Shown one piece after another: positions 10,356-35,253 of a stretch of DNA of 64,000 nt. The position numbers were made by a program, and so were the translations under genes. Positions within the stretch are counted from its first letter, which is position 1. Every line of letters begins with the position of its first letter. A model generated the notes under the pieces. That model was not told the origin of the DNA. It worked only from the letters and a program-made list of their open reading frames with translations, and ran no database searches. The DNA is from Eretmocerus hayati (taxonomy: Eukaryota > Arthropoda > Insecta > Hymenoptera > Aphelinidae): assembly GCA_029851415.1 (NCBI GenBank), contig CM056742.1:86108748-86172747 (forward strand), given 5' to 3'.

Positions 10356-11467
10356 AACATTTTTGGGCGCAGAGCGTGATTGGGGCTCAGTGCACTTCGA
10401 TAATTCGATTGGGTTTTTGTGGGTTAATGGCATCGTTGGGTGCGAGTGAATATTTCGTCGCGCGAGTGTAAGTGATGTGAGTGCGCGGAGAGAAGGAGCT
10501 CGCGGCCGTTGGACATTGTGTTCGACGCGAACGAGATCATCAAAGAGGCAGTTCAAGCCTCAAGTACTGGCTTCGTGCAGCACCGGAGTCGACAAGGTGC
10601 ATACATCCCCGGATCCGCAGCAAGCAGCTGCACGGCGTCAGGACGAGCAGCTGGTGATCATCTTCACGTCAAGCTGCAGCAGGGCAAGCCGCGTGGAATT
10701 TTTTCATGCGCGCTTCCGGGTATTATCCTGCGCATCGCGCCATCACCTGCTGTTAGCTGGAGCTACGTCACATCGACGTCGCTCCCCACCACCGCTGTCT
10801 TCTACGCCTGCTTGCTTCGTCTTCATTGCTGCTGCGGGTCGCGTGCTCAGCTAAGACAGCGCGCACTACAGGAGAGTGGGGATAAGGTGGCCGTCACGCA
10901 ATGCAGTCGCCTCAGAGCGATTGGTGAGCGTATCATTCCCTTACTAGTGTGCATGTATAGTGCGGTCTTCCGCACTTATGATTCTCATACGCTCACCTGC
11001 GAGCCAGCTGATGGATATAAACGCGACGCATGCATTCGGCGTTTGCGAGGCTCGCAGCATAGCATGAATATAGTTGCCCACTTGGAAATATCTTACCCGT
11101 GGTCACGTTCAGGAGTCGAATGGAGTCGAACTCGCGACTCTCTTCTAAGGGTTCGTATTGGTGTTGAGAAGTATATGTCTGGCGCAATAGGATCACGCTG
11201 CAGCAGAAGATAGACGCATTCGATCATATTTTCAGCGAGTTGATGGGGGAGATCGGTCGACCCAACGCTCTAGCCTCTCTGTGTCAGTCAAACAGCTGAT
11301 CCATCTCAACTATTCTTCTGTTGGGAGAATTTTTATGTCTCGATGGGTGGTAGTTTCGCGCGTTAGTGCGCGGTTATTTCAGCGTGTTTTTGGGTCTAAT
11401 TTCATGGTTAGACTGTGGTAACGATTTCTAAACATGAGAGATTTATCTGTGATATTTAATTTTAAAC
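10356..11467 (+). other. GC-rich stretch and presumed 5' LTR/leader of the BEL/Pao element
   Basis: Bases 10460-10870 are GC-rich; long frames here (for example 10509-11213) show no motif and I do not call them genes. A TATA-like GGATATAAACGCGAC occurs near 11013. TGGCGCAATAGGATC at about 11179 begins with TGG, as a primer-binding site should, and lies 290 bases before the gag start. A 3' LTR for comparison is missing, so the LTR limits cannot be fixed. Confidence 0.3.
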
Positions 11468-12001
11468 ATGGCGGCTAGATCACTTTTCGATAGACAACTA
11501 AGATTAGTAGCTTACATTCGTGATTTCGATACGAATACTGCCAAAAAGGGCGAAGAAAACATCACGGTGAAATTCCTCAAGACTCGCTTAGAGTTATTAG
11601 AGAAATATTGGATTGAATTTTGTCAAAATGATTTGGATTCACAGCAGTATGCCAATGAACTAAAAGATGAAGTATATTTTACAAAATTAGGTTTCCTTGA
11701 TATAGAAGGTACATATTCAGAATCGAAGTCTGACTCATTAGACAACATTGCCACGCTATCAGTCCCAACGGAAACTCAGTCAGAAAATGGTTCAGTGCAT
11801 AATTCCATCCACAATTCGGTACAAGAACCAGATGCTGCTGCTAATCTCCCACCGGATCGAAATTATTATCCGTCTCAACCGTTCGATGCGCAACAGCTGA
11901 TACGTGCATCATCCGAATTGCAGTCAATTCCTAGGCTGCAACCACCTAAGTTCTCGGGTAAACAAGCTGGGAATTTTTCAAAGAACGCTTCATATCCGTA
12001 A
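11468..12001 (+). pseudogene. gag: BEL/Pao gag, N-terminal part
   Basis: The frame starts MAARSLFDRQLRLVAYIRDF and contains a helical segment (LKTRLELLEKYWIEFCQ) typical of the N-terminus of Pao-family gag. It is followed by a Ser/Asn-rich linker and then RLQPPKFSGK, the conserved entry to the DUF1759 capsid-like domain. The coding sequence shifts frame at about 11,970: the next conserved words (GDDPDLSPSAKL) are in another frame and then hit a stop. Gag forms the particle that packages the element RNA. This copy is broken. Confidence 0.75.
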
Positions 12002-12157
12002 TTGGGGATGATCCTGATTTGTCGCCGTCTGCTAAATTACCATCTGCTCAACTCAACCGACGGTGATGCAGAGGGAATGATGAAGAGTGTAAAAACGAAT
12101 TCTGTGAACTTTCTGGTTGCATGAAATAAATCATGTCGGCGTTAGGATAATTCTCGG

Positions 12158-12607
12158 TTGAGATTGAACACACGTTTGAATGCATTAATCGATTTGGCTC
12201 CAATTGCGGAAAAATCAGCGCAAGCCTACGTAACAATAATGAACCAAGCGGAGGAAGCGATTCAGGGGTTGCGGGATTTGGAATGCCCGGTAGATGAATG
12301 GGATTGTTGGCTTATACACTTGATAGTTAGAAAATTAGATCATGGTATCAGAAAGAGCTGGAGAATTGCTCAAGAACCCATTGAAGGTTTTTCGACGTAT
12401 ACATCGTTATTTCCTTTTTTGGAGACTCGATTTCAATCGCTGGATGCAGCTCATGCGGGTTCTGTCCCATCTAATGATTCTGAACCTAATTTCCCGTCAT
12501 TTGGCAGATCTCAAAATAATTCGAATCGAAGAAAAGTAAATCCAAATTTTGGAAATCTCAGGGTAATAAGGGTCAATCTGGCGGTCAACTTTCCTGTTGT
12601 ATTGTAA
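12158..12607 (+). pseudogene. gag: BEL/Pao gag, DUF1759 C-terminal part
   Basis: This continues the gag reading in the same frame number as the first piece, after about 150 bases with stops. Conserved features are LIDLAPIAEKSAQAYVTIMNQ, then a WDCWLIHLIVRKLDHGIRKSW segment and a LFPFLETRF helix, as in DUF1759 proteins. The expected zinc knuckle lies further on in decayed sequence (12,600-12,760 has several Cys/His codons). The usual role is RNA packaging; this piece is truncated. Confidence 0.7.
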
Positions 12608-12673
12608 AGGTGATCATGCATTGCATAATTGTGATAAATTCTTAGCATTATCTTTCCACCAAAGATTTGAATT

Positions 12674-13363
12674 TTGCAAATCGAATCGTTGATGTTTAAA
12701 TTGTTTAGAGCCTGGTCATTTCGCAGAAAATGTGAATCAATGTATAAGTATTCTAAGTGCCAAAGGCCACATCACACGAAATCACGTATGGAATCAATGG
12801 GTGCTCCCAAACCAGAGGACGCTCAACGCAAATCGCAGCAGACTGATTGTCATTTGATTCATTGTTTTTCTGCTGTGTCGGAGCAAGCGCGTTTAGTAGC
12901 GACGGCGCGTATATGGTTACAAGATCCTCATGGACCAGAGGTAGAAGCTCGTGCACTAATCGATCCAGATTCGGATTGTTCGTTTGTCGTTGATGGAGTA
13001 GTTCAAGCTTTGGATCTGCCGTCTCGCAAACTTAGGTTAAGGATCAATACTATTGGGGATGGACGCACAGTCGTTTCGACGAGTGAAGTCTCGCTCACGC
13101 TGCTGTCGAAAATCGATTCAAAATTCTGTCTCGAGATCGAGGCTCTGATTCTTCCGGAACTAACCTCATTTTTGCGTAGGTCAAAGGTGAAATGTAACAA
13201 TTGGTCGCATTTGCATGGATTAACACTTGCTGATCCGGAATATTTCATTCCTGCAAAAGTCGATTGCTTATTGGGTACCGAGGTTTATAGCAACATTCTT
13301 CGGGAGGGTTCGATAAAGGGCCCACCAAGAATTCCTACCGCACAGAACACAGCATTGGGTTGA
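12674..13363 (+). pseudogene. BEL/Pao aspartic protease domain (DUF1758)
   Basis: The active-site region reads ARALIDPDSDCSFV, where the family normally has a Leu-Leu-Asp-Gly/Ser-Gly type motif. The following text with LRINTIGDG and VDCLLGTEVYSNIL is typical of Pao proteases. The Asp is present, but the loop after it has Pro-Asp instead of the usual small residues, which may be a damaging change. The domain lies between gag and reverse transcriptase, as expected for the pol polyprotein. The frame ends at 13363 and pol resumes in another frame 24 bases later. Confidence 0.7.
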
Positions 13364-13386
13364 ATTCTCACTAGACGGAGTCGAGT

Positions 13387-14218
13387 GTGGGAACTGTAAA
13401 TCCTCGTGTCGTTTCATCCTTACATGCTGGCGTTGATAGTCCTCTGTCAGATCAGCTAAATAGATTTTGGGAAATTGAAGAACTCCCAGCTACTCGTCAT
13501 CTCACAGCTGAGGAGGAGTATTGTGAAGAATTATTGACGTCTTCTGTCGAGCGCACGCCTGGAAGATGCTTCGTCGTGCGCCTCCCTTTCACAAAAAATA
13601 CTCATGAAGCTTCGTTTTCTGAATCTAGAGACGTTGCGGGGGCATGCCTACTAAGATTTGTGAAAAAACGACAACGAGATTCGAAGTTGGATGAAGCGTA
13701 CACCGAATTCATGGAACAGTACGAGTCATTGGGACATATGAAACGCACACAGCCACCAGATGGGTCGACTCCGGTGCCATCTCTCCTGCCATATCATCCT
13801 GTTTCCCGTAAGGACAGCGACCTAATTCGAGTCGTTCTGAATGCTTCGCATAAAACAGGTAATGGTAAAAGTTTGAATGTTTTTTTATTGGCTGGCCCCA
13901 AGCTTCAAGATGATCAAACATTTGTATTGATTCGCTGGAGAATTCCCAAACATGGATTTCGTACAGACACCGTAAGAATGTTCAGACAAATTTTGGTACA
14001 TTCTGAGGATATGAATTGGCAGAGGATTGTCTGGCGATCATGGAGACAAGACGATATCCTTGACTTCGTTTTGCCAACGGTCACTTATGGTACAGTTTGT
14101 GCGCCGTATCTGGCGATTAGAGTTCTCCTCCAATAGGCAGAGACTTACAAAGATGAATTTCCTATCGCAGTTTTAATTATCCTGTTTCGTCGATACATGG
14201 ATGATTTGTTTGGGGGAG
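13387..14218 (+). pseudogene. pol: BEL/Pao reverse transcriptase
   Basis: Conserved Pao reverse-transcriptase features appear in order: FWEIEELP, RCFVVRLPF, VRVVLNAS-like RVVLNASHKTGNGKSLN, the LAGPKLQDD segment, and MFRQILVHSEDMNWQRIVWR. A TAG at 14134-14136 interrupts the frame just before the catalytic block. The frame continues after it, with RRYMDDLF (the catalytic aspartate pair) at about 14191-14214. Near 14,220-14,440 the frame decays further. The enzyme would copy the element RNA into DNA; this copy is not functional. Confidence 0.8.
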
Positions 14219-14437
14219 GGAATACTCTACCAGCCGCTTTGGAAGCTCGGGACCAGCTGATCTCGATCATTTCATGCGCCTGCATGAACTTGGAAAGTGG
14301 TCGGCAAATCACTGGGATTTGTTGAGAGGGCTCTTTTCAGAAAACTCAGGTGACATTGCGATAGAACTCGACCATGTCGTCTCCACCCTTGAATCGAAAA
14401 GGTTTCCGCATGATGATCAATTTTTTATGGGATATCG

Positions 14438-15231
14438 ATGCCTTCAGCTCCTGATATTGTTACGAGAAGATCGATTCTATCAGAAGTAGCTCGGTTGTTT
14501 GATCCACATGGTTTGTTAGCTCCGTTTCTGATACAAGCTAAAATCTTATTGCAAAATATGTGGCATTTGAAAATCGAATGGAACACTCCCGTCGTCGGTG
14601 AAGTACTCGTTGAATGGCAGGAAATACGGTCACAAGTCCAACTATTGGCCCGAGTTCGAGTGTCTCGATGGTTAAGCACACTGTCGAGTTCAAGTTGGGA
14701 ACTGCATGGGTTCGCAGACGCGTCGGAAAGGGCATATGCGGCCGCGGTTTACTTGGTGATTCCAGGAAAAACTTCACAATTGATTATGGCTAAGACCAAA
14801 GTGGCACCTGATAAAACACTTTCCATCCCAGAACTCGAGTTGTGCGGTGCAGCTTTGTTAGTCAAATTAGCCAAACATGTCATGAGTAATTTGGAAATTC
14901 GACCATCAGCTGTTCATTGCTGGTCTGATTCAAAGGTGGTCCTGGATTGGCTCAATTGTCATCCGTCTAAATGGGAGACTTTTGTGGCCAATCGAGTACG
15001 ATTAGCAAAACTTTACCAGAGGCTGTATGGAGGCATGTTTGCTCGGAAGATAATTCCGCAAACTGCGCAACCCGGGGGTTGACCGCGAAAAAGCTCTTAA
15101 ATTTGGATATCTGGTGGAATGGACCAAACTGGGTGACTCAACCGAAGAATGAATGGCCTGAAGTAACTTCAGAACCGGTATGCGCGGAATCGTTGGCTCA
15201 TCTAGTTGTGGAATCGTCGCAGGTTTCATAA
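14438..15231 (+). pseudogene. pol: BEL/Pao Pao-specific connection and RNase H-like region
   Basis: The frame carries RRSILSEVARLFDPHGLLAP, the conserved Pao block after the polymerase. It is followed by HGFADASERAYAAAVY (first RNase H aspartate), IPELELCGAALL (glutamate), and CWSDSKVVLDWL (second aspartate), so the catalytic D-E-D set is visible. At about 15,060 the frame shifts and continues in the frame 14971-15231 (SEDNSANCATRGLTAKKLLNLDIWW). It degrades the RNA strand during reverse transcription in intact elements. Confidence 0.75.
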
Positions 15232-17366: not shown

Positions 17367-17960
17367 TCATTGTGATGTTTGTGGGATGACTGGGAGATCT
17401 TGGGAATCAAGCTTGGGCAGATGGAGTTTTAGTGAGAACTTGAATGATGATAGTGACGGCAGGTTGCGCATAAGAAGCGGGAGAGAGTTGCAGAGTCTGG
17501 CGCACTGGATTTGAAATGAGTTCTCGGTTGACTTGAGTAGGACTCTGGGGATCTTCAATTCTCCAGCATCATCCCGACTCGTGGGTCTGCGCTGATTTTC
17601 AATGAACATCGCGGCTAAGTAATCGGGCTCTTTCATCTTTAAAATTTTATACATGAGGATAGCTGCAAAGTATGACCTACGCGAGTCTGAACGTAACCAG
17701 TTCCGGTTTCCTCTGAACGAGGTGATGTGCTCCCTCTTCTTCACTCCAAAAATATATCTCACCCATGAATTCTGCAGTCTCTGCAGTCGCGACCGTTCTT
17801 TGTCTGGGGCGTCAAGACATTCCACAGTACAGTAATCTAGGTGAAGCAGAGCGAGAGTCTCGACCAGCCTTCGGCGGAGTGTCTCGGTGGTGCACGCCCT
17901 GATAAACCGCAGACCATGAAGGGCACTGGTAACTTTTTTGGTAACTTGATCGATCTGCGG
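17367..17960 (-). pseudogene. non-LTR reverse transcriptase C-terminus (copy 2)
   Basis: The minus-strand frame is continuous from about 17,960 (PQIDQVTKKVTSALHGLRF, RACTTETLRRRL) through LQRLQNSWVRYIFGVKKREHIT to the tail ending LPVIPQTSQ. This is the thumb and C-terminal domain of a CR1/jockey-like reverse transcriptase, homologous to the decayed copy at 5.3-6.3 kb but better preserved. The catalytic part is missing, so this is a 5'-truncated insertion, the usual outcome of incomplete reverse transcription. It interrupts the BEL/Pao element and is itself interrupted by the R1-clade element. Confidence 0.75.
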
Positions 17961-17964
17961 TGTC

Positions 17965-18014
17965 GGCTTACAATTTTGCCTGCTCGGCGGTCCGAGCAGG
18001 CAAAATTGTAAGCC
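17965..18014. repeat. perfect 23-bp hairpin
   Basis: 17965-17987 and 17992-18014 are exact reverse complements separated by CGGT (arms begin GGCTTACAATTTTGCC). The right arm is the start of the X-Y repeat; the left arm is its inverted duplicate. Confidence 0.85.
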
Positions 18015-20742: not shown

Positions 20743-20984
20743 TCAGAGTATTATATTTCCTCGATTCACTCTGATATTCCAATCTTTCTTAACTTCCTCT
20801 GAAAGGTGATGGAAGAGATTGCTCTTCAATAGATCGGCTTCGTCAGGATCAGAATTGAGAAAAGGAAGGAAATTCAAGAGGACTGATGCTTCATGTGTGA
20901 AGGATTTTTTCAGTGCTGTAGTGCGAGCAGTTGGGATCAAGAGTGGTGTAGGTTGCTGTCTTTGTGATCTACGTATGTCAGGAT
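20743..20984 (-). pseudogene. non-LTR reverse transcriptase tail (target gene of the giant insertion, 3' part)
   Basis: The minus-strand frame reads RRSQRQQPTPLLIPTART followed by a KKSFTHEASVLLNFLP block. These are the post-thumb C-terminal residues of jockey/CR1-like reverse transcriptases, where a terminal SFxxxAxxLWNxLP-type motif is conserved. The frame begins directly at the 8-bp duplication GTCAGGAT (20977-20984). Its upstream part lies 14.3 kb away at 35,246-35,520, and the reading frame is preserved across the two pieces. Confidence 0.7.
20977..20984. repeat. 8-bp target-site duplication, left
   Basis: GTCAGGAT lies immediately outside the left terminal inverted repeat and is repeated exactly at 35246-35253. 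Confidence 0.85.
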
Positions 20985-21650
20985 CATAGACATATAAGAG
21001 ATAGACTGCGGGTCCCGTGCGCCGGCCGCCGTACATCGACCGAGAGAGACAGAAACTCTAAGAGTCGACTCTCCTGTCTTTCTCGCCGCTTCTGATTGGT
21101 CGGCGCTACTCCCCGCCGCTCTCGTCACCCGCCCGCTGGCTAACACACATAGCTGTGAAAATAAATCAAAACACCATAAATTGATGGAGATAATTCACCA
21201 CGGCTCTAATGTAATCACAATCATGCCATAATGTAATCACTCAATGTATCTGAGATCTTATTCTCAATAGTTGAACTCAAGTCCCGGAGGGGTTAGCGCT
21301 CTATATGCAAGTTGTATATCGATTAGCTACAAACTGATTCATGGTCGTGCGTGCTAAAGCGCTCGCCCTGTCATTCTGCCGACGCGGCGCGGCCAGGGTT
21401 CGATCCCCTCGCAGAAATTTTTTTATCTCTTGAAACTCTTTTTTTTTTCAATTTTTCTGTTCATTTCTAGGCAAAGATAATCTATTGCAGCAAGATTATT
21501 GTCAATTCAACACAAGGAAGATGCTTATTCCCATTTTCCACGCAGTTTTTCCCAAGATAACTTAAAATTTATGTCTTTAAAAAGAAGTGTTTGCTCTTTC
21601 TGTTTTAGATATCTTGAGATACTATCTCCATCTATAAGTATATTATCACA
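20985..21650 (+). repeat. left terminal inverted repeat (~660 bp)
   Basis: This is the reverse complement of 34585-35245. The outer 400 bases differ at roughly one base in 25-30 by eye, and the inner part is more diverged. It contains a subterminal palindrome (GAGAGACAG around 21043 against CTGTCTTTCTC around 21080, centred on GAGTCGACTC) and a tRNA-like segment ending in a T run at 21338-21424. Confidence 0.85.
21338..21424 (+). ncRNA. tRNA-like Pol III promoter segment inside the left TIR
   Basis: GGTCGTGCGTGC (weak box A) is followed by a consensus box B GGTTCGATCCC (21398-21408) and, ten bases later, a run of seven T, a Pol III terminator. The inverted copy in the right TIR (box B at about 34823-34833) is conserved. 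This may be a tRNA-derived SINE trapped in the ancestral terminus, or a Pol III unit belonging to the element. Folding into a complete cloverleaf is not evident. Confidence 0.4.
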
Positions 21651-21653
21651 AAT

Positions 21654-21801
21654 TATTACCATTACTTGAGACTCGAGAAAGTTGAGAACTTCAACGAGCC
21701 CCTCAAAAAGTGCAAGTATATTCAAGCGCAAAATATTAAAACTCTTCCTCAGTTCTCGTTAAAGTTTCCAACTTTCTCGAGTCTTAAGTAATGGTAATGA
21801 T
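21654..21801. repeat. inverted repeat with ~46-bp arms beside the left TIR
   Basis: 21654-21698 and 21755-21801 are near-perfect reverse complements (ATTACCATTACTTGAGACTC on the left, GAGTCTTAAGTAATGGTAAT on the right). They begin three bases inside the left TIR. The loop is 56 bases. Confidence 0.7.
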
Positions 21802-21837
21802 ATCTCCCTATATTATATAGTAGTAAGAAAGAAGGTC

Positions 21838-22164
21838 CACCGAACTCCATAAAACTCCACTGACTTCCACAGACCTCCAATTAACCCCACTCACCCCCAC
21901 TATCTCCACTGACATCCACTGACCTCCACTGATTGCCGTTGACTCCCACCGACGGCCACCGGTTGACCTCGACCACCACCTAATTCCACCGACCGCCACT
22001 GAACCCCACCGACCCCCAACCAATGATTTCCCTTTTTTTACCATATAATTTGGTTACTTCCACTGACCTCCACTGAAATCCACCGACCTCCACCGAAATC
22101 CACCGAATTCCATCGAATTCCGCTGATTGCCACTGAAGGCCACCGATTGCCGTTGAGCTCCACT
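21838..22164. repeat. degenerate 10-bp minisatellite (CCACTGACCT type)
   Basis: More than 25 tandem units of about ten bases (CCACTGACCT, CCACCGACCT, CCACTGATTG and similar) occur in two blocks, 21838-22019 and 22050-22164. A 30-base non-repeat spacer with TACCATATAATTTGG separates them. The opposite strand is purine-rich with GG steps every ten bases. Confidence 0.8.
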
Positions 22165-22207
22165 ATTTTTTTCTCATCCACCCAGAATACTATTGTCATC
22201 ATTTCCA

Positions 22208-22587
22208 TCATAGACATAGAAGTATACACTGCGTGTCCCGTATACCCCCCGTTGTCAGCTAGCCTCTACAATGAGAGTGGGAGAGACACAACATAGATGA
22301 CGCGTGTTTAAAGTGCTGACCTTTGGAGCATGTTGTCTCTCTCATCATAGACAATATGAAATACACTATTTGATTTGATTCTCATTTCATATATTGTCCT
22401 TACTTTTGAAATTTCGAATTACAATAAATTGTACAAGTTAGGTCTTTGTTACGTGAACCACTTGGTTTTACATATGATTTTTACTACCAACATTCTCACT
22501 ACACCTCCTTCAGTTTCTCCTGTAGGGATAACGATAAATATCTATCATTTGCGCATGGAAATCAATAATCACATAATTATTGAATAC
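22208..22587. other. related TIR tip and non-coding leader of the gene cluster end
   Basis: CATAGACATAGAAGTATACACTGCGTGTCCCGT at 22212-22244 resembles the giant element's own tip. A weaker copy (CATAGACAATATGAAATACACT) starts near 22351. GAGAGACACAACAT (22284) pairs with ATGTTGTCTCTCTC (22331). The rest is AT-rich without genes. Confidence 0.4.
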
Positions 22588-23659
22588 TCAAATAACCTCA
22601 ATGACAAAAATTTCGTTCGCAAGTATCAATTTTTCCATCTTCATTTTAGCGTCAGATAATTCTTTGATTTTATCAACTCCTTTCACTTTCAAAACGTAAG
22701 TCATACCTGAAATATATCATGAGAATAATTTTATCGTATTACTCAAGATTGGTATCGAACAATGCTATATAAATGATACGTAACCATCTTCCTGCAAATC
22801 TCCAGATATCTCCAGCTTAGTCCCACGTTCGTATTCAGGTGTTTTATCTCCTTCGCTTTTTCGTACAATAACATCTAACTTATTCTCCGGGATCTGTTAC
22901 AACTCCCAAAATCTCATTTTCATTCTTGTCCGATCTTTTCGTGAATTCGTCTTTCAGATAAGCTTTCAATCCTTGAATTAAATATTCGTTTCATGATTTG
23001 ACCAATACTCTTTATTTTGATTTATATATTCATTGGATATCATGCTTACTTATGAGTCCGTTTTTAGATGGTATTTCTTTGAAGGAAATGTCCTTGAATT
23101 TACAGTCGAATTCTCCACAGCAAAAAATACTAGAATAATTCTGAATCACAATCTCATAATCTGTATTACTTTTCGTGAATCGTTTTTTGGCTTGATTAAC
23201 AGAAACTTTCTCCAACATCAATTTCTAAAACTCAATTCATAAAGAATAGATCATTGATGTAAAACACAATAGGTGTCATATAGAATGAAAATTCAATTGT
23301 TACCTTATTAATTTTTATATCACGACTAAATTTCGAAATAGTATCGGTGTAAATATTACATTGGATCTTGATACCATCATTATTTGTCATGACAAATTTG
23401 AAAACTTCGAACTCAGTTTCATCCTTCTTCTGAAATGTCTGTTTACCGAAAATCTCTTCAACATAACCTATAATTGTTCTGCAAGAATAGATTTAACATG
23501 AAAAAATGTATTAGAGAATAGATTCCATATGAAAATTTACTTTACTAACGTAGTTTTATCGCCGATTTTGACTTTATTCTTCAAAAAGTCTGTTTCAGAT
23601 ACAGGAATTGACTTCAATTTCTTCATCAGCGGTTCGTTTGTACGCCCTGAACTACTCAT
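22588..23659 (-). CDS. RPA70-like single-strand DNA-binding protein, five exons
   Basis: Minus-strand exons: 23541-23659, 23304-23478, 23050-23224, 22785-22971 and 22588-22706, each bounded by GT and AG, with phases that agree at the first three junctions. The product (~258 aa) starts MSSSGRTNEPLMKKLKSIPV. It contains an OB-fold with FKFVMTNNDGIKIQCNIY and AKKRFTKSNTDYEIVIQN, matching the RPA1 DNA-binding-domain pattern, and a second partial OB-fold with ENEILGVVTDPGE and KLDVIVRKSEGD. Exon 4 has one base too many near 22,875, so the frame shifts there: a lesion or a missed splice choice. RPA-like genes accompany Rep-helicase proteins in many Helitrons, where they would coat single-stranded intermediates. 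It starts 64 bases after the zinc-finger gene on the same strand. Confidence 0.65.
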
Positions 23660-23722
23660 TTTGACTGTAAATATCCCAAATTCCAAATTTCACGTATTAC
23701 CCTCACAAAATTTCATTGAACT

Positions 23723-24195
23723 TCAAATTTTCATATTTTTGCACAATTTTGAATGTTTTTTCATCACATCTATCCTACGGAAATTTCTACCACATTCTTC
23801 ACATCTATATTGTGGTTCAATATGATTCAACTGATGTCTGGTTAGATTATCTTTAGTTTTGAACCACAATTTGCACGAAGAACAACAGAATCTCTTCGTT
23901 TTAGAGTGACTCATTAGATGCCTTTCAGCTAATCTTGATAATACTACCATTCCACAACGATTGCATTGGCTGTATTTCCCAACTTTGTTTTCGTGCTTTC
24001 TCTTTATATGTTTCTTTAGGTGATAAGGATCACAAAATTTCACTTTGCAAATTGCACATTGGACAGCTTTACTGACATCAAAATTTTCCGTGATTGATTT
24101 ACTAAGCAGAGGATCGAATGTTAAATAGATAGAATTTGATCAAGACTATTTGATATTCTATAAAAATCATGAAATTACTTTGTATTCTTCGCCAT
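23723..24195 (-). CDS. C2H2 zinc-finger protein, two exons
   Basis: Exon 2 (23723-24101) encodes four C2H2-type fingers: CAICKVKFCDPYHLKKHIKRKH, then CNRCGM...HLMSH, CSSCKLWFKTKDNLTRHQLNH, and CEECGRNF...KKHSKLC, the last ending in H-x3-C. A short first exon (24179-24195, ATGGCGAAGAATACAAA) joins across a 77-base intron with GT/AG ends (24102-24178), giving MAKNTNKSITENF before the first finger. The alternative is an uncapped frame beginning at a GTG. The product is probably a nucleic-acid-binding protein. It lies between the unknown 134-aa ORF and the RPA-like gene, all in one orientation, so it may be an accessory gene of the element or a captured host gene. Confidence 0.6.
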
Positions 24196-24270
24196 TTTTA
24201 CACTAATTTCAATCTTTACACTGTCATGAAAGTAACAGATGACCTAAATCATGGATATCAGTGGAATGTT

Positions 24271-24675
24271 TTAATTCATAAGCATGTTAATTATATTCGC
24301 CAAATTCAATAGATATTTCATTCGAAGATCGTTGTTATCTGTAACAGATCGATCGATTAGATTTCTTTTGGATCGGAAATGCCAAATGGTCAGAGCTTTT
24401 TTCTTCAAACATGGAGGCAATTCAATCCAATTATCAAATTTCCCAACAAAGCCATCATTCCTCTCGTGGATTACTATCGAACTGTTCAAACATTCTATCT
24501 CACTCATCATTTCCAGAGATTGAACGTAACTTTCATATCTCCTTTGTTCTTCCAAATGATTTTTTATTTGGAAATTGATTGATCTTAACAATTCTTCCTC
24601 TGTGGCATCTTTGATTTCCACTAACATGCCCAATAATGGATTCCACTCCATTACATTCAACATATTCTGATTCAT
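24271..24675 (-). CDS. unknown 134-aa ORF in the Rep-helicase cluster
   Basis: The open frame starts MNQNMLNVMEWNPLLGMLVEI and continues with a charged helical segment (EEELLRSINFQIKNHLEEQRRY) and a C-terminal part with WIELPPCLKKKALTIWHF and RMKYLLNLANIINMLMN. I do not recognise a family. A predicted helical, coiled-coil-prone middle is all that can be said. It lies 190 bases downstream of the helicase stop and 75 bases upstream of the zinc-finger start, on the same strand, with no frame lesions in 134 codons. That favours a real gene. Confidence 0.45.
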   Translation of the reverse strand: MNQNMLNVMEWNPLLGMLVEIKDATEEELLRSINFQIKNHLEEQRRYESYVQSLEMMSEIECLNSSIVIHERNDGFVGKFDNWIELPPCLKKKALTIWHFRSKRNLIDRSVTDNNDLRMKYLLNLANIINMLMN

Positions 24676-24865
24676 GACTGAAATTTAAATTCACCCAGGA
24701 AGTAACTTATATGTATAATCGTGAATGAAAAAATGTGTTTAGTATGATCGTGAATCATGTCTTATACATTTACTCTTCATTTTATTTGACCAATATTGAA
24801 TATATGAAGCCACAGAAAGACTAAAGTTCCTTATATGGTTGCATTTGATTTGAATCTATTACATA

Positions 24866-26668
24866 TTAATTAAAAACTTCTTTCCATACTACGTTATCTA
24901 AAAAATCTGCGTTGTCAAGCCGGTTCTCGATGTACAAATTTTTTGGATTCTTACACCTTGAAAGAGCAACATATAATTGACCATGGGAGAACAAGGGCCT
25001 CCTCAAGTATATACCAACTTTATCGAAACTTTGACCTTGTGATTTATTTATAGTCATAGCAAAAGCCAATACTACAGGAAATTGTTTTCTGTGAAGAATG
25101 AAAGGCAAGGATGACTCACCAGTATTAAGAGTTATCCTTGGGATGAAAACAATTCTGCCCTTGTTTTCCCCTGTAATTATCTCTGCTTTAAGATTAAACT
25201 TGAATAATTTCCTAACCTTCAATCGAGTTCCATTACATAAACCATCTTTCGTACTTATGTTACGTATGAGCATAACTATTGCATTCACTTTCAATTCCAG
25301 TTTATGTGGAGGTAATCCTTCTCTGATCTGATTTAGATTTTCCACAGGATAATTTAGTTGTATATTATCATCTGTCTGATCAACGCCTTTATGAGTTGCA
25401 TAGTCAATGCTGTGATACGTAGACGATTTTCCATCTAACATTTTGAGAATCTTTCCATTAAGCTTGATTACATCTTCATTATGCGAGGACAAAACAACTC
25501 GATTAGATTTATCATCCGAATTGATATTTTTGTATACGCTTTCACAAACATTGTCCGTTTTCCATTCTTCCCTTATCTCAACCGGATTTATAGTCCCTTT
25601 CCCTACACTCAATAAAAAATTAGAAAATTCTTGATCTTCACATCTCAAATTCTTCTTCAAATTCATAACTTTGAATAGAGGCCACAGAGATGAGAATTTG
25701 ATCGTCTCATTCACGATGGACTCCCTATTAGCACGCTTCATTACAGGTAAAATTTGGCGAAAATCTCCTCCCAAAATCACTAATTTCCCTCCAAACGGTG
25801 AATCATTGAAACTCACATCTCTCAATGTTCTATCCACAACCTCAAGTGCTTTTTTAGGAATCATAGAAGCCTCGTCCCAAATTATGATTTCGGCTTCTCT
25901 CAATTTCTTTTTATCCTTGTCTGATTTGAGGAAAACTGATTCAATACACTCTAAATCTAGAGGCAATTTGAAAGTTTTGTGACTTGTCAAACCTTTGGGC
26001 AAGAGTATCGATGCTATTCCAGTCCAAGCCATTGATAAAACCTTCATCTCTCGAGATAAAAAGTAGTAGATGAGAGTCTTGTACAGAAATGTTTTCCCAC
26101 AACCTCCAGGACCATCTATGAAATTCGTCAAATTTTCCATACTTTTTAATTTCTCGAAGATCAACTTTTGATCAAAATTTAACTGAGAAAATAAGATATC
26201 GAATCTTTTCTTACATTCTTCTGCAGTTAACTGATCTGATTCTTCACCTCTGCTCACTACTGATGGATTTGGTTTCGGCAGGCCGAAGTCTTCGCATTTA
26301 GTGTCTTCTGATTGCAATATATCATTTATATGATTCAGAGCCAAATTTTCACCATCTGATTTGAAGTCTTCTATGAAGAAAAATTTGAATTTTTCCCATA
26401 TCCCATTACCTTGAATTTTTTCAGCTATCAAGAACCACGCGAAGAACTGACGTAATTGGAATGGTAACATGATAGATATCGCTTCTTCAAATACTTCAAA
26501 ATTTTTTTCATCCGTCTCAATCAAACCCAAAGCCATCGCAGTTTCCCGGAATGAGTTGTACGTTACACCATCGTGCGTCATCAGATCTTTGTAGCAAGTT
26601 GCACCTTTTGTTCTATTCAAAATCAATTTCAAAAAAAAACCTTTCACCATCTTTTGGAGATACAACAT
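24866..26668 (-). pseudogene. Helitron-type protein, Pif1-like helicase part
   Basis: The 600-codon frame carries the junction text GFFLKLILNRTKGATCYKDL (link from Rep to helicase). It then has superfamily 1 helicase motifs: Walker A GPGGCGKT (residues 186-193), Walker B IIIWDEAS (261-268), motif III GGDFRQILPV (300-309), and near the C-terminus TINKSQGQSFDKVG and ALSRCKNPKNLY. This is the 5'-3' Pif1-family helicase that unwinds DNA in rolling-circle transposition. No AP endonuclease domain follows. The start shown is not the natural one: the helicase continues from the Rep part at 26613-27635 after a one-base slip in a run of nine T (+ strand A at 26631-26639); with eight the two frames join. 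Confidence 0.9.
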
Positions 26669-27635
26669 TCAATCTACCTATCGTTTCATGTTTTTGTGAA
26701 CGCAATCTTCTCACCCATTTCCTTTTAGAATTGTTGAAGCTATAGTACTTAGGTATATTCACATACTTTATTTTTCTTGCAAAAGGATCTGTCTTATTCA
26801 ACTCGAACCATGAAATCAAATGAGTCTTCCAACGTTTCAATGCATCCAGCTCTTTGCTTTCTTCGAAAACAATGTTCTGTTGGTTTTCAATATGTACAGG
26901 TAATCTTTCAACACAATGACTGCGACCGATTAGTGGAAATTTGGCCAATCTCCAAGCACATTCCATCGGGCTCAGGTATCTTCCATCGATATATTCTTTT
27001 ATTTCGTCGTGAATTTCACTTCGTTTTCCACTGTCTACTTTATCAATTCTACAAAGGGCTTTATCATGACCTTTATGGAGATATTTGTAAACATATTTTA
27101 TGCTCTGAATAGATGAACAATATTCCACGTTGATATGACATTTGTACTTCTTGAGCAGAAATTTGTTGTACGGTACAACCATAGAGTTATCAACTGACAA
27201 GCGCATACTTGGAAATATCGAGGAATAACGATGACCCTCATCTCTGTTATCTCTCCTTCGATAATTCGGATAACCGTCCTTGTTGATGCAAGTAGATGAT
27301 TGGAATTTTTTAGGATATTTTTTAGTGCATGTTTTTGTATCCATGTCATAACAAGGAGTCTTGTATGAGTGTGGACCATGCAGCATATGTTTCAAAACCA
27401 ACTTCTGTAATACATGGTCATCCGTGGGTATTTCTGCTGAAATATGTTTGTCGATGGCTTCTGAGGTCAACATTTTATCTTTCGGGTGTAAAGTTACCAA
27501 TAAGTGAGCATGTGGTAGACCTCTTTTCTGGAATTCTACTGTATGTACTTGAGCGATTGCTTTTCCAAAAATATTATTTTCCATGATATCTCTTACGAGC
27601 TCATCTAATTTGGTTTTGAACAAACGAACAGTCAA
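26613..27635 (-). pseudogene. Helitron-type protein, HUH Rep nuclease part
   Basis: Contains the HUH motif in RGLPHAHLLVTL (His 42 and His 44 of this piece) and the two-tyrosine motif KYVYKYLHKGHD (Tyr 181 and Tyr 185), the pair expected to nick and join DNA in Helitron Rep proteins. Between them are a Cys/Lys-rich segment (TKTCTKKYPKKFQ) and YNKFLLKKYKCHINVEYCSS, all typical. It is in the same frame as the upstream piece, separated only by the TGA at 27660-27662, and runs into a homopolymer frameshift at its end. All catalytic residues are present. Confidence 0.9.
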
Positions 27636-27659
27636 TCCCGGTATATCATTGACTGTCGT

Positions 27660-29762
27660 TCACTTAGGGAATCTTTTCAATACTCTCTTCAACTCCTCCC
27701 ACTTGGGATTGCATGTCATAGTTATGAATAAGTCAGGCCTCCCCTTCTCCCTCATTATAGCCATAGCATCCTGATAATGCTGTTGCATATAACGTGGGCC
27801 ACCGATGAAAGTGGAGGGTAGAATAAATAGATTTCCTAATCTCTCTTTTTTTTCAAAATTTTCTGAACAATTCGAAGCACAGTTTTGTACTGCGTCAAAT
27901 AAACCTTGGTAGCATTCAATTCTGAGCTTCTTCTGATTATTTCTAAGAAACCTCATACGATTACTCTCAACCATTACGTAAGCATGAATGAATTTTTGTT
28001 GAGTTAGCCTACCTCCAAACAAAAGTGGGCTGAATCTTTTATGATTAGGTCTATATGCCAATCGATATGAATAATAATCCAATACCGATAACTGTTTTTC
28101 ATCAGGAGCAGCATCAGGTCTACTTTTGTAACCAGTGCTCCAACCTAAATCCCCTTGAGGATAAAAGATCGGAAAGACCATTGGATCTACATGATGCGAT
28201 AACTTATGTAAACACGTGTGCTTAACATTGTCTTTAGAAGCTCTAGGATAGACACAGAGGTCGAAGTTGTCTGGTATGCCTTTGTCCGAAACAAGTATAG
28301 CACCACATTCAGATGTCAAAGGTTTGTTGTATGTGTGCTGTTGGGATCCTTTTTTCCTAACGAAATAGAGTCTATGATTTGATAGCTTATTATTTTTGGT
28401 AACGTTGTATAAATTTTTGTATTGTTTCGCGTAAGGATTGTGATTCATGACATCAGTAAGAATTCTCATATGTTCGTCACGTGAAGCTTGATCTATTGCT
28501 GTACATCCTTTCAAATCTTTCTTCCCCTTATTCCATCTCATTAATCTCTCATCAGTTGCCATCTTGTCATCATATATATACAACTGACAAAGTTCAGGTT
28601 GTTTATGTTTATTAGGAATAATATGATCTGGTGTTGTATGACAAACTTGACCTTGAATTTTGATATTATAAATGCCCTTTTCATCTTTGACAACAGCCTT
28701 GAAAGTTGCGAAACTAAACAAATTGTTATAGAACCGTATTAGATGTCTGAAAACCAAGTCATGAATGAGCATTTTCCCAAGTCTCGGATCATAATTACTT
28801 GGTGGAGATAAAACTATTTTACCATTTCGACAACAAGTAGATTTCATCCTTTCATTCTTCCAGTAAACAGCACCACAATATTTGCAGGTGTGATCCAAAT
28901 GACCGTAGTCAGAGACATGGTTCAATCCTTTTTTACCGTTATTTAAATTCTTGTACTTTGTTCTAAACTTTACTTGCGACCTCTTTACAGAATTTTTCAT
29001 TTTTTTATCTTTTATGAGTCCATAGTCAACAACATAGTTTACATCTTTTGGATTCCGGAATATAGACTTCTTAGGTTTTTCTATCAATCGCACCCTTGGA
29101 AGTCTTGTGATGACTTTTTTGTAAGGAATTTTCTGATTAAATCCCTCTATATCCATTTTAATGTCGATTTGATCACACTTTAGTGTTTGCACTTCATTTT
29201 GTAATCGTGAAACGTGATTCGTTTTGAATTTTTTCGGAGAAACATTGAAATAGTGATATGATTTGAATTTTTTAGCAGGTATGTTGTGTTGTTCTTTCTG
29301 ATACTTTCTCTTGGAGAATGATTCTTTCAAATCTTCACAGAAAGTGTAGGGATCACCAATTAGAACGTCATAATGAGCAGAATGGTTAACTCCGGAGAAG
29401 ACCAAATTCAGGTTGCTATTCCGTTCGTCAGACTTGAATGATATTAAGTCTCGAGTATCTTTCATGTGAACGTGAACGTTGGTTTTGTACAGTTTGCTAA
29501 AGGCTCTTATTTCAATTTCACTGCCGTAAGTTTTATCTCTGGACATAAATTGGCAGTACTGAGCGGAATTGAATATAGACTCATAATAGTGATTGCCTAG
29601 AATGAATGGCTTGTATTCCGACCAATTCGAAGAAATATATTTCACTATACGGTGACGCAGATCATTGTATAGATTCTGATTACCATGAAGAAAGTACGAA
29701 AAACAACGGAATAAACAGTTGCCATCGCCAACGATATGGACAATGTAATTATCCATTATCAA
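27660..29762 (-). pseudogene. Helitron-type protein, OTU protease and Helitron-like N-terminal part
   Basis: The 700-codon frame starts MIMDNYIVHIVGDGNCLFRCF. This is an OTU cysteine protease domain with Cys16 in GDGNCLFR and His130 in NHSAHYDV, spanning about residues 5-140. A Lys-rich linker follows, then a zinc-binding segment (CKYCGAVYW...STCCRNGK, near 290-315) and the Helitron_like_N domain, ending in FGGRLTQQKFIHAYVMVESNRMRF and RPDLFITMTCNPKWEELKRVL. The frame ends at TGA (27660-27662), but the same frame continues with TVNDIPGLTVRLFK. A CGA-to-TGA change would explain the stop. OTU domains occur in animal Helitron/Helentron proteins. The first ATG or the second (Met3) could be the start. 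Confidence 0.9.
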
Positions 29763-32700
29763 TGAGTTCCTTGAAGTGTAAATTCAACAATCATCAACAG
29801 ATTTTCTCAATATTTCGAAATTAGTAATAAAGATGGTTTATGTCATAGAACTCAATAGGAGAGTGCACACTCGATAAAATTAAAAATTACATTTGATTAA
29901 TGGTACTATGTTTTTGTAATGAATTTCGAAAACTATTGGGAAATAATCAACTTCAATCTGGACATCTTCCGAGGTTGAGGGAGAAAGATCTTGCATGATG
30001 ACTTTTCTTCATCTAGAGAAGATATTTTAATGAGATATTTCTCATCCGTATATTGGTGTAAAATATTTAACTTTGTTTTAACAAATACTATTAAGGGATG
30101 CGGTCGCCATGCAACCCGGAAATTATATTTCATTTAGATGTACCTCAAAATTTTGATCATATGAAGTTTGAGACCAGTTGTCCATTACGTATTATGATCT
30201 GAATTGTGGTGAAACTCGTCATTTTTCATTAATCGCAAGACTAATCGGTAATGAAAGAGAATAATTTGGTCGCGTGTACTTACTAACCTACAAATTGGCA
30301 CATTTTTGTTCACAGAAATTCCAATCTTTTCAAATTCGGGCTAAACTGCGAGCTATTCAGGCTTTCTAATCATGTAACTTGGCCTGGATAACTCTTCGTT
30401 CAGCCCAAATTGGAAAAGATTTCGATAATCGATTCAAAAATGAGCGTGCACGGTGACCGCATCGCCTTAAACATAGTCTATAATGCTTGATATAAATTCT
30501 GAAGATCTTATAGGTAGCAAGAAATTGACAGAACTCATGATTTCTAAAGAAGACACTTGTGTTCAAAGAAATCGAAGAAAAATAATGATTAGAAGCTGAT
30601 GCACAGCATTGCAATAGAAAAGCGCCAGAGGTTCATATCGCCCTAGGGGGTGTCCACTAATGAAGCGTACGCACTGCTCACGGCTCACGTGCGCGATGCA
30701 CTGCTCATCGGATTTTAACCTGCGAGTGACATGGATTTCCCGGAAGATCGTCATCCACCTATAGGTTATAAAGTCAAGTTCTGTATTTGATCCATCCGGT
30801 AACAAGGGAAATCCATATCTCTCGCAGGCTAAAATCCGATGAGTAGCGCATCGCGCACGTGAGCCGTGGGTATGCGCAGTGAGCCGTGAGCAAAGCGCTC
30901 GTGTTGAAATTTCCCATCTCTTGGATGTTGGGAGGGTATTTTTACATCCAAAGCTTGAGGCAGGATGTGAGACAATGAGTTTTTAGTGTTTATATACAAA
31001 AACAAATCGGCAGTTCGTATATGAATAAGTATTGTAAAATCCAATGCGAATCGACTAAGTGAATAGAAATCTCCGAGATCCTAGGTTCATCAAACGAAAG
31101 GTTGAAAACAAACAGACTCAGATATGAGCTGAACTTTGCAACGACGAGATTGAATATTCGCCAAATCCCGCGATAACACTCGATCGTCTCGGATCTAGCT
31201 CTGTAGGATTTAGCAAAATCAAACAAGGGTCGTACCGAAATGGAATTTTTCACTAACTCGTCGAGTTAGTAAGACTGACAAGCTTTTCTGGAAAACCAAG
31301 CAAGCTCAGTCACATTATATCAAGCAACAAATTTCTTCTCGAGCTTTTACTCGGTTTGTATCGTATAGGTATTTTAATAGGTATAGTGAATATCAATGTT
31401 AGAGGTAAAGTTTTTGATGTAAAAATTGCACCCACGAATATTTGTGATACGACAATGTTTCTTTTCGGAAAAGGTGCATTATAAGAGTTAAGTTCAATTC
31501 ACATTATCGTTATTCGTTCGATACAAAGTATGTTGTAATGCCGAATCTTCCATGTATTGACGATGATGTACTATGGAGTCAATACTCGTGATAATTTCGA
31601 CCCTCGCCAAGGCTCGGGCCGAAAACAATCACTCTCAAAGCAAAACAAAACTTACCACCCTCTTATCGAAAAATACTATTTCAAGATACTGACATAAGGG
31701 AAATTTACAAATTATGCATCAGCAAGTTTCAAAAATGTAAGAGCAAACTCGAGAAGCTGAGCATATATTGTCCAAGTACCCAAAGTCCTATCAATACCTG
31801 CCTGATAGATGTCAGTGTCAAACAATCGGTTTACTTAAGCAACATATCTTAGACCATATATCACGACGAGCTCGCGTCGATACCAACAGATGTTCATCAC
31901 CGAGCCTTTGGCCACGAGGATGTTTTAATTATACGGTCATGGATTTATACATTCGGTAAAAGCAATCGTATAAGTAGGTGAGCTGTCACACTCTTCATGT
32001 ATTCGTCATATGATTTGAATTATGCATAACATGGATAACGTAAGAGTGTGCAAATTGCACATGACTGATGTATGTGGTCTGATTTTCATAAGGATACGGC
32101 GCGCCAAGTCCGGTATTATGCTCGGTCCCGTGAATTCCCTCTGCTAAGTCCTTGATACATTTAATTGATACGGAATAAGGATAAGACAAAAGGATTTACC
32201 CAGTTCCTTGAGTTTGGACTATAATAAGAGAATGAGGAAGACTGAATATCCTGGGGTTTGGGCGCACCTTGCCTTGGTTGATTATATGGAATAAACCTTG
32301 GAAATTTGAAGCTTGGGACAGACGTGGATCTTTTTGCAAAAATCTTTTTCCCTTTCAAATGATGCTGCCCCCTCCCTTTCAAAACGCATCAAAACGGATT
32401 AGAAATTCATCTTTTCTAGAATTTAAATTGAATTGATTACTGTTAAATACAGATAAATGATAAAAATAATAAACAATTAACAATATTCATCAATGTTCAA
32501 TAATTCATCAATAATTCATCGGTGAATGAATTCGCATCAAGCATTGGTTGAGTTGAATTTTTTGAATTTCTATTGGTCGAGTGAGAGTGTATCTCGAATC
32601 CTGTATGAACGTCTAGGGCATTGTATACATACAACATTAATTTTATGTGAACGGTGGATATGTGTCGACCGTCTAAAGCGAAAAAAAGTAGTAGAAACTC

Positions 32701-34540
32701 CATTAAACCATCATTTTTGGCCTTTCGATCCTTTGAAGTACAATCCCGAGGCCATGTAATTGCAAAATATACCTACTTTGCACTCGACAACATCAAGGAC
32801 TCGATTTAATCATGGTTGAGGGAGAGCACACATCACAGAGCTTTCAAAAGTAGCCAATGTAACTCGCATAATGTGTGAGAAAGGATTTCAAAGAATCTTC
32901 TTAAAAATCGTGATATTTCGTCGTTGCGAGCAAAAATCAGGAATATAATCATTTAAAATTTTAGAAAGGCTGTGTCGGACGATATTTAGAAAAAAGTAAC
33001 GATTTCTGTTTGAAAATTTTCGAATTTATACATGTCCGATTTGAATATGTCTATTTCCGTACGGATTGAATGAATTCTATTTAGAAAACACACATTTGAC
33101 GAGAATCCAATCGTGACCTACATGACTTCAATACAAGAGCAAAGAATATCATTTTTGTAGATTTGTGAAGATTTATAAAGTATTTCAAGAGAATTCTAAG
33201 ATTCAAATTTCTCTGATAAAATCTTGCTTTTAAATCGCTTTGCTCTAATCTCATATAATCAGGACAGTTTCAAAGGATCTTATCTATGGAAATAGAATCA
33301 GTTCTTATAAAATGCAACATAAGTCATGCAAAGCGTGCTAGAAAATAGTCAGTGATGTCACAAGATGTGTATAATTAATAAATAGTTATAGGAAAAAATT
33401 CGTGTAATGTTTGAAAATATAACGGAAGTATTGAAATTTGAAATGATAATTTTATATGATATAACTATTGAAATCATTTAAGACTAAGGAGCAAAGATGA
33501 CTCACGGCATATTGTTTTGGCTAAAATTTTAGATATAAATCATACCTTGTAGAAGAAAAGTCACGTATTTGCTTGTATGAGCTGTAGAATATTTGCTTCA
33601 AATACAATCCAAAGTATCCAAAGTACTATCCGGTTAGACTGTTACTGTGTAAGAGAGATAATTTTAAGATATTTATCACGATTATGAATTTACATGTGAG
33701 ATATGATGTTAATGCATTATCAATAAAAAATATTAAGGATATTATTGTAAAGAACAATGGCAAAAGTATAGAAACGACTAACCTCAATTATGAATTCATC
33801 TCCTAGCTTATGCAATTATGTTAGTCAATCAAAATTTCTCATGAATTTCTTCAATCCAACAAAGTTTCGTGTAGATGGTGAGTTGCGGTAACTGAACTAT
33901 ATGACTTTTAAAAAATTTCCATCCTGGAAATTTCATATTACATATTCAATATTGTAGTATACTTGATATAATCTTATATTGATTATTTTATATATTTGGA
34001 TGAAAATGTATACTCACAATAACAATGATAATTTTTCTGATTTATGTCAATATTTGACGATTATCAAAATTGCCAAAAAATTCGGATATAAAAATCTAAA
34101 TTTTATACAAAAATGTACCATTCAAAACAAACAAGCAGAAAAACAGTGACAAATACTTAGTTCAGGTTAGATTTAGAATTGCATTTGTAGAAAATCAATA
34201 TATTGATTTTTCGTTGTTGTTGAATAGTAGCAATGAGACAAATTGGTAGGATGGGGTAAAAGGTCGAGCGTGGCGTGGAGAGAATTGAAGTTAATAAAAA
34301 TTGATCATTTTGAATTATTTCTTTTGGAAATTAAGCAAAAATTTTAGGTGGGATGATTTATACACCGTATGTAAGACAACCAAATGGACATACAATTCTT
34401 CTCTCTCCCATTGTTCCTAATTTCAGAAAGTACATAGATTTGCAGTTGAGCGTGTGTCTATGCATTAAATTTTGCATGTAACGGAACGGATCTAGGACAT
34501 ATTGTTTTAGTCTCTAAGTATAAGAGTACGGGTTATAGGG
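29763..34540. other. non-coding right half of the giant element
   Basis: AT-rich sequence between the Rep-helicase start and the right TIR, nearly 4.8 kb. Only short frames without motifs occur. An inverted repeat lies at 30676-30871. The small palindrome ACTAACTCGTCGAGTTAGT lies at about 31246-31264. Promoter elements for the minus-strand cluster should lie near 29,770-30,100, but I could not identify them with confidence. Confidence 0.5.
30676..30871. repeat. inverted repeat with ~65-bp arms
   Basis: 30676-30741 (CGGCTCACGTGCGCGATGC...GGATTTCCC) and 30806-30871 (GGGAAATCCAT...GCATCGCGCACGTGAGCCG) are reverse complements with few mismatches. The loop is about 64 bases. This may be a small foldback MITE; no target duplication was identified. 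Confidence 0.65.
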
Positions 34541-34545
34541 GTTGT

Positions 34546-34589
34546 GGGGGTTGGCGAGCGGAGCGAGCAGGGGGGCTTGCCCCCCCTAG
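34546..34589 (+). other. Helitron-like 3' terminus (GC hairpin followed by CTAG)
   Basis: GGGGTTGGCGAGCGGAGCGAGC is followed by AGGGGGG-CTTG-CCCCCC (hairpin 34570-34585) and CTAG (34586-34589), then T. A subterminal hairpin ending at CTRR next to T is the standard Helitron 3' end. It points in the opposite direction to the Rep-helicase genes, so it probably belongs to a different, non-autonomous copy. Its 5' end was not found. Confidence 0.45.
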
Positions 34590-35245
34590 TGTGATTATAT
34601 ACTCATAGATGGAGATAGTATCTCAAGATATCTAAAACAGGAAAAGCAAACACTTTGTTTCAAAGCCATGAATTTTGAGTTATCAAGGGAAAAACTGCGT
34701 GAAAAATGGGAATAAAAATCTTCCCCTTGTTGAATTGACAATAATTTCGCTGCAATAGATTATCTCTGCCTAGGAATGGACAGAAAAAAAAGAGTTTCAA
34801 GGGATAAAAAATTTTCTGCGAGGGGATCGAACCCTGGCCGCGCCGCGTCGGCAAAATGACAGGGCGAGCGCTTCAGCACGCACGACCATGGATCGGTTTG
34901 AATCTAATTGATATACAACTTGCATATAAAGCGCTAACCCCTCCGGGACTAGAGTTTAACTATTGAGAATAAGATCTCAGATACAATGAGTGATTACATT
35001 ATGGCATGATTGTGATTACATTAGAGCCGTGGTGAATTATTTCCATCAATTTATGGTGTTTTGATTTATTTTCACAGCTATGTGTGTTAGCCAGCGGGCG
35101 GGTGACGAGAGCGGCGGGGAGTAGCGCCGACCAATCAGAAGCGGCGAGAGAGACAGGAGAGTCGACTCTTAGAGTTCCTGTCTCTCTCGGTCGATGTACG
35201 GCGGCCGGCGCACGGGCCCCGCAGTCCATCTCTTATATGTCTATG
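34585..35245 (-). repeat. right terminal inverted repeat (~660 bp)
   Basis: Reverse complement of 20985-21650. It carries a strong subterminal hairpin: 35146-35158 (GAGAGAGACAGGA region) pairs with 35176-35188. The box B-like GGATCGAACCC lies at about 34823-34833, as in the left copy. The inner limit coincides with the CTAG of the Helitron-like terminus. Confidence 0.85.
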
Positions 35246-35253
35246 GTCAGGAT
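35246..35253. repeat. 8-bp target-site duplication, right
   Basis: GTCAGGAT directly follows the terminal CTATG of the right TIR and equals 20977-20984. Confidence 0.85.

Follow-up and report, generated by a model that had tools for sequence, protein, structure and literature searches.

The genome of the parasitoid wasp Eretmocerus hayati carries a transposon-like unit of 14,261 bp (35245 − 20985 + 1) in which long terminal inverted repeats (TIRs), flanked by an 8-bp target duplication, enclose a set of Helitron-type genes. The unit lies on contig CM056742.1 (assembly GCA_029851415.1) within the stretch of 64,000 nucleotides that was analysed, referred to below as the window. On balance, the unit is best explained as a non-autonomous long-TIR cut-and-paste transposon, probably of P type and similar to Galileo or to the P-type miniature inverted-repeat transposable elements (P-MITEs), with a Helitron as its passenger. 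The features on which this explanation draws are the arms, the duplication, a reconstructable empty site, the gene content and its decay, and an additional internal tip, all of which are directly observed.

Under the favoured explanation, a DDE transposase encoded elsewhere would have acted in trans, binding the arms and mobilising the unit, which would have entered a retrotransposon through an 8-bp staggered cut. The Helitron would have come in by nested insertion or by an exchange of ends, either before the unit landed or shortly thereafter, losing recognisable Helitron ends in the process, and the two arms would already have been unequal when the unit inserted.

Terminal repeats, target duplication and insertion site

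The boundaries of the unit are defined by four features:

20985..21650, plus strand: left terminal inverted repeat, with the tip CATAGACATATAAGAGAT
34590..35245, minus strand: right terminal inverted repeat, an inverted copy of the left arm
20977..20984, no strand: left copy of the 8-bp target duplication, GTCAGGAT, read from the sequence
35246..35253, no strand: right copy of the 8-bp target duplication, GTCAGGAT, read from the sequence

Global alignment of the left and right arms gave 615 identical bases among the 656 compared, with 41 mismatches and 10 gap positions. Divergence is unevenly spread along the arms, with 8 mismatches in the outer 300 bp as against 33 in the 356 positions compared further in. 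The duplicated octamer GTCAGGAT has three occurrences in the window, at 20842, 20977 and 35246; because it is present at the inner edge of neither arm, the possibility that the arms are stand-alone elements is not favoured in the window. The tip motif CATAGACATAKAAG, allowing up to one mismatch, matched three times in the window, whereas 100 shuffles averaged 0.07 matches and none of them had three or more. Two of these matches are the ends of the unit, and the third is an internal tip at 22209. The arm alignment and the paired octamers thus bear out the initial annotation of this DNA, which had described inverted repeats of about 660 bp with an exact 8-bp duplication.

Removal of the unit and one copy of GTCAGGAT from the flanking DNA yields a continuous minus-strand peptide across the join (...MSNHPDIRRSQRQQ...). 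When this joined peptide was aligned with a related open reading frame (ORF) in the same window (17367-18014, minus strand) the score was 93, as compared with 47 for the best of 300 shuffles; the halves of the alignment scored separately gave 62 (left) and 48 (right), and there is a 4-residue gap just past the junction. The joined frame shows stops further out, and the host copy itself was therefore already decayed. The initial annotation had joined two minus-strand pieces of reverse transcriptase in frame. Their continuity was upheld, but the flank frames, which are presumably reverse transcriptase, owe that name to inspection by eye, as Pfam matched neither ORF 17367-18014 nor the minus-strand frames of the flanks. 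The insertion event, with its duplication and a pre-insertion site that remains readable in a peptide aligned across the junction, is confirmed as real and had been correctly read. That the unit is instead an assembly artefact joining unrelated repeats is very improbable: the window is rich in satellite arrays, but an exact duplication, paired tips and a continuous frame at one site would have to be due to chance.

The arms also share a tRNA-like stretch, resembling the head of a short interspersed nuclear element, which was recognised by eye at 21340-21425 (plus strand) and at about 34810-34890 and consists of a box-B-like GGTTCGATCCC followed by oligo-T. ARAGORN called no tRNA in the stretch in the arm, and its predicted RNA fold was no better than those of shuffles. 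Rfam returned two matches only, both far below the curated thresholds.

The Helitron-type gene set

The genes within the unit all lie on the minus strand:

27660..29783, minus strand: OTU-like protease domain and first Rep part (PF02338, E 2e-13; PF14214, E 3e-35)
26613..27659, minus strand: second Rep part, with the HUH and two-tyrosine motif seen by eye in the alignment (PF14214, E 5e-15)
24866..26668, minus strand: Pif1-type helicase part of the Helitron protein (PF05970, E 1.2e-53)
24271..24684, minus strand: 137-aa ORF without recognised relatives, from its translation
23723..24139, minus strand: C2H2 zinc-finger ORF, by domain match
22499..23659, minus strand: RPA-like single-strand DNA-binding gene, its exons and ends placed by eye

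Judged from its reading frames, the gene set is Helitron-like and broken. The fusion of Rep (HUH/Y2) to a Pif1-type helicase that defines Helitrons is present, though split by one in-frame stop, which closes ORF 27660-29783 ahead of the second Rep piece, and by one frame change, which separates helicase ORF 24866-26668 from the Rep piece. Together with the OTU domain, the C2H2 ORF and the RPA-like gene, this fusion substantiates the Helitron-type cargo first proposed for the unit. The RPA-like gene contains one frame change, and without the last small exon its frame would stop at 22588; its conceptual splice matched DUF223 at E 3e-4, which is under the curated cut-off, and RPA70 chains at E 8e-4. 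A protein search with the 137-aa ORF at E values up to 0.01 gave no homologues.

Among the matches listed, the named proteins closest to the Rep gene come from mixed sources (a nematode, a mite and a sawfly), and no relative was found in the viral collection. The OTU domain is N-terminal within the Rep reading frame, an arrangement found likewise in one protein (P0064) among 120 matches listed. Five of the 228 pattern matches are Rep-gene relatives with 32-40% identity, located on contigs of 3.0-6.4 kb that had been binned as bacteria (L001-L005). The bin labels of these contigs are Zixiibacteriota, Bacteroidetes, Desulfosporosinus and Tenacibaculum. The presence of Helitron Rep genes on these contigs is probably due to eukaryotic contamination of the bins. 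All five lack CATAGACATA, and no inverted arms longer than 45 nt were found among the matches listed, the contigs being too short to decide between a nested and a hybrid origin.

Transposase and superfamily of the arms

Translated sequence was scanned for a transposase by six-frame comparison with Pfam at E values up to 0.5, covering 20985-24860 and 29780-34590, with the other frames of the helicase genes and the right arm lying outside the scan. There was no match to a THAP domain or to a TIR-type transposase in these stretches, where the only matches were to C2H2 fingers and a sub-threshold match to XisH; within this scope, the earlier statement that no TIR-type transposase is visible was upheld.

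Assignment of the arms to the P superfamily is suggested by the 8-bp duplication, the CAT tip and the target sequence. The octamer GTCAGGAT on both outer sides has the duplication length of the P superfamily, a length shared with hobo, a member of the hAT superfamily. It agrees with the P target motif GTCCGGAC at 6 of 8 positions, which is expected by chance in about 0.4% of cases and is here an observation on a single site. The 17-nt tip is identical to the fly P tip CATGATGAAATAACATA at 10 of 17 positions (shuffle p 0.025), and the probability rises to 0.24 when CAT is left out; the internal tip at 22209 shares 7 of 17 positions with the fly P tip. A local alignment of the left tip with a 31-nt P TIR was also tried and set aside, as only GGTCCCGT is shared and the score of 16 compares with 20-23 for the top ten of 1,000 shuffles. 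The hint of P-superfamily affinity in the initial annotation is thus weakly supported by the duplication, the CAT tip and the 6/8 target, and not by the tip beyond CAT, which is not significantly P-like, nor by a transposase, which was unrecognised in the stretches scanned. Searches of the viral and prokaryote collections with the tip patterns gave no match.

It is unlikely that the unit is the same composite with arms derived from hAT or from another superfamily that generates 8-bp duplications. The tips of hAT elements follow the rule C/T-A-A/G-N-G, which the CATAG tip of the unit violates at base 3, and the P target fits better, at 6 of 8 positions. In favour of such an origin, hobo also duplicates 8 bp, and GTCAGGAT matches the hobo target GTNCGNAC at 4 of its 6 fixed positions (targets of P, GTCCGGAC, and of hobo as given in Tables 3 and 4 of PMC3276498).

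Internal tips and the search for Helitron ends

The left side of the unit contains, in addition to the terminal tip, two sequences of tip-like character:

22209..22248, plus strand (left-arm orientation): internal second tip, tip B, CATAGACATAGAAGTATACACTGCGTGTCCCGT, scoring 53 to the left arm
22346..22362, plus strand: possible third tip, tip C, CATAGACAATATGAAAT, a weak candidate of CATAGACA type

The score of tip B against the left arm compares with 31 for the best of 200 shuffles. Tip B stands about 290-380 bp past the point where the RPA-like gene stops, the distance varying with the choice of last exon, and its position beside the gene set is a new observation, absent from the initial annotation. 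No partner for tip B was found in the right half, where the best score was 29, compared with 37-44 for the five highest of 60 shuffles. The octamer immediately before tip B, ATTTCCAT, is found again at 33915 and 35039, there without an adjoining tip. Tips B and C have in common the 11-bp repeat CATCATAGACA. Several transposon ends on the left side are what would be expected from end exchange, or from nested insertions of one tip family.

A Helitron 3′ end (a hairpin followed by CTRR) had no candidate on the coding strand of 21651-34589, and none was found in a scan of 21645-24900; the opposite strand gave five weak hairpin-CTRR rows at three places (31275, 22133 and 32065). The best score for Helentron subterminal inverted repeats, comparing 21651-22560 with 29784-34589, was 12.0, within the range of the maxima of 12 shuffles (10.5-13.5). 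A hairpin near 22350-22398 was considered as a Helentron-like end and rejected, having a z of −0.52, with 60 of 200 shuffles folding equally well. Pfam gave no match to an apurinic/apyrimidinic (AP) endonuclease in the ORFs of the gene set or in the six-frame scans of 20985-24860 and 29780-34590.

These observations bear on whether the unit is an integral hybrid, in which the Rep-helicase, OTU and RPA module functions within a TIR family, for instance in replicating an excised form, and the DDE transposase acts in trans. Such a hybrid is quite unlikely, even though Helitron ends are unrecognised around the gene set, the RPA-like gene is followed, past its stop, by a second tip of this type, lesions in the genes are few, and the outermost duplication encloses the entire gene set. 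Against it, a single copy was seen and a transposase was unrecognised in the stretches scanned; moreover, Helitrons are common as insertions and their ends can be lost by truncation. A TIR family that combines rolling-circle or episomal replication by an integral Helitron module of this kind with P-like DDE integration at the long arms is still less to be expected.

Decay of arms and genes

The three Rep-helicase ORFs, 4,971 bp in all, were subjected to simulated random substitution in 300 runs per rate, with only stops counted. The mean number of stops was 2.2 at 1% divergence per lineage, 3.1 at 1.5% and 6.6 at 3%, for which the chance of seeing one stop or none is 0.34, 0.18 and 0.003, respectively. 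The lesions observed in these ORFs are one in-frame stop and one frame change. Divergence per arm is about 1.3% in the outer 300 bp and about 3% over the whole arm (41/656). By the outer-arm clock, the genes could have been resident since about the time of insertion, whereas by the whole-arm clock they look younger than the insertion. Because the whole-arm clock predicts 6.6 stops where one is seen, the two arms were probably unequal from the start. The uneven divergence of the arms thus favours residence of the genes since insertion, without proving it.

The whole-arm clock is also the basis of an alternative that is possible, though doubtful, in which a short long-TIR (foldback-like) element inserted first, a Helitron jumped in afterwards, and the 14-kb unit never moved as a whole. 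From the divergence over the whole arm, about 6-7 stops would be expected in these ORFs, but one is seen. The contrast between the outer (8/300) and inner (33/356) parts of the arms, however, implies that the inner arms were probably unequal before insertion, and Helitron junctions are unrecognised.

Comparison with known elements

The architecture of the unit recalls Galileo, a member of the P superfamily in Drosophila with long TIRs, many non-autonomous copies, nested elements, and chimeric copies with unequal TIRs (described in passages of PMC3573991 and PMC4168063). Galileo TIRs are reported there as 18-1,250 bp, with a mean of 668 bp in D. mojavensis (PMC3573991), and other elements lie inside 17.3% of the copies in D. 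willistoni (PMC4168063). Its duplications, unlike the 8-bp GTCAGGAT, are mostly of 7 bp, GTATTAC or GTAGTAC (GTANTAC), although three D. willistoni copies also have 8 bp. The passages on Galileo mention no Helitron gene set, and the likeness described here is one of architecture.

The P element, zebrafish Pdre2 and the P-MITEs share with the unit an 8-bp duplication, CAT tips in the case of fly P and Pdre2, and, at 6 of 8 positions, the target motif GTCCGGAC (passages of PMC4004357, PMC10983969, PMC3276498 and PMC1562414). The fly P element has a 17-nt head with the tip CATGATG and 8-bp duplications (PMC4004357), and Pdre2 has the tip CATACCTGTCAAC (CATACC) and an 8-bp duplication (PMC10983969). 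Non-autonomous P-MITEs with 8-bp duplications are known, including one with hybrid ends (PMC1562414). The TIRs measure 13 bp in Pdre2 and 27-31 bp in Anopheles P, compared with 660 bp in the unit, which differs further in a tip dissimilar beyond CAT and in a P transposase that is unrecognised in the stretches scanned.

Helitrons and Helentrons resemble the internal gene set in combining Rep (HUH, two tyrosines) with a Pif1 helicase, and such elements can likewise carry OTU and RPA genes, according to passages of PMC4067079 and PMC6431247. Taken as a whole, the unit departs from the Helitron pattern of no target duplication and no long TIRs, since it has both, and differs also in the lack of a CTRR-hairpin on the coding strand and of an AP-endonuclease match. 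No TIR element carrying Helitron genes was noticed among the matches listed in open-licence PMC texts, though one could still exist in print.

Several points weigh against a Helitron passenger in a P-type carrier. Helitron ends would be expected around a nested copy; the coding strand showed no recognisable one, the 5′ end (TC in an A^T target) not having been sought, and this evidence is purely negative. With tip B lying next to the gene cluster, there is also a hint of an earlier association between ends of this type and the cluster. The P assignment is weak beyond the CAT start, with the alignment to the 31-nt TIR falling within shuffles. A second copy was seen for no part of the unit; the collections examined, viral and prokaryote, are poor places for one and may omit the genome of the window itself, in which no search was made.

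A unit that moved whole would join HUH rolling-circle and DDE cut-and-paste chemistries, which are normally kept apart, and would offer Helitron genes a route of travel that does not require Helitron ends. If the arrangement is nested, it represents a readable case of a long-TIR element as the carrier of another transposon.

Non-coding parts of the unit and surrounding sequence

Three further features lie within the unit:

21652..21801, no strand: stem-loop with 47-nt arms, abutting the left arm, read from the sequence
21836..22163, plus strand: degenerate 10-bp array (TCCACTGACC-like; decamer TCCACYGACC) between the left arm and tip B
29784..34589, no strand: 4.8 kb without recognised coding, with the sub-threshold XisH match only (E 0.026)

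The last of these contains an inverted repeat with 63-bp arms at 30679-30868 that is MITE-like by eye.

Outside the unit, pieces of a Bel/Pao-like retrotransposon are present on the plus strand at 11453-15082, with a Pfam match only for 14417-15082 (PF05380, E 4e-49). Among the best 20 of 306 proteins matching this ORF there are seven named sources, all wasps or ants, with 44-54% identity (Copidosoma twice, Trichogramma, Lasius, Nasonia, Vollenhovia and Linepithema); lower-ranked relatives among the matches listed include flies and spiders. To the right of the unit, satellite-like arrays extend over 37147-63352, where units of about 1,170 bp at 37.1-45.0 kb recur at 54.5-56.7 kb, and units of about 325 bp with a higher order of about 1,230 bp at 45.1-50.6 kb recur at 56.6-63.4 kb.

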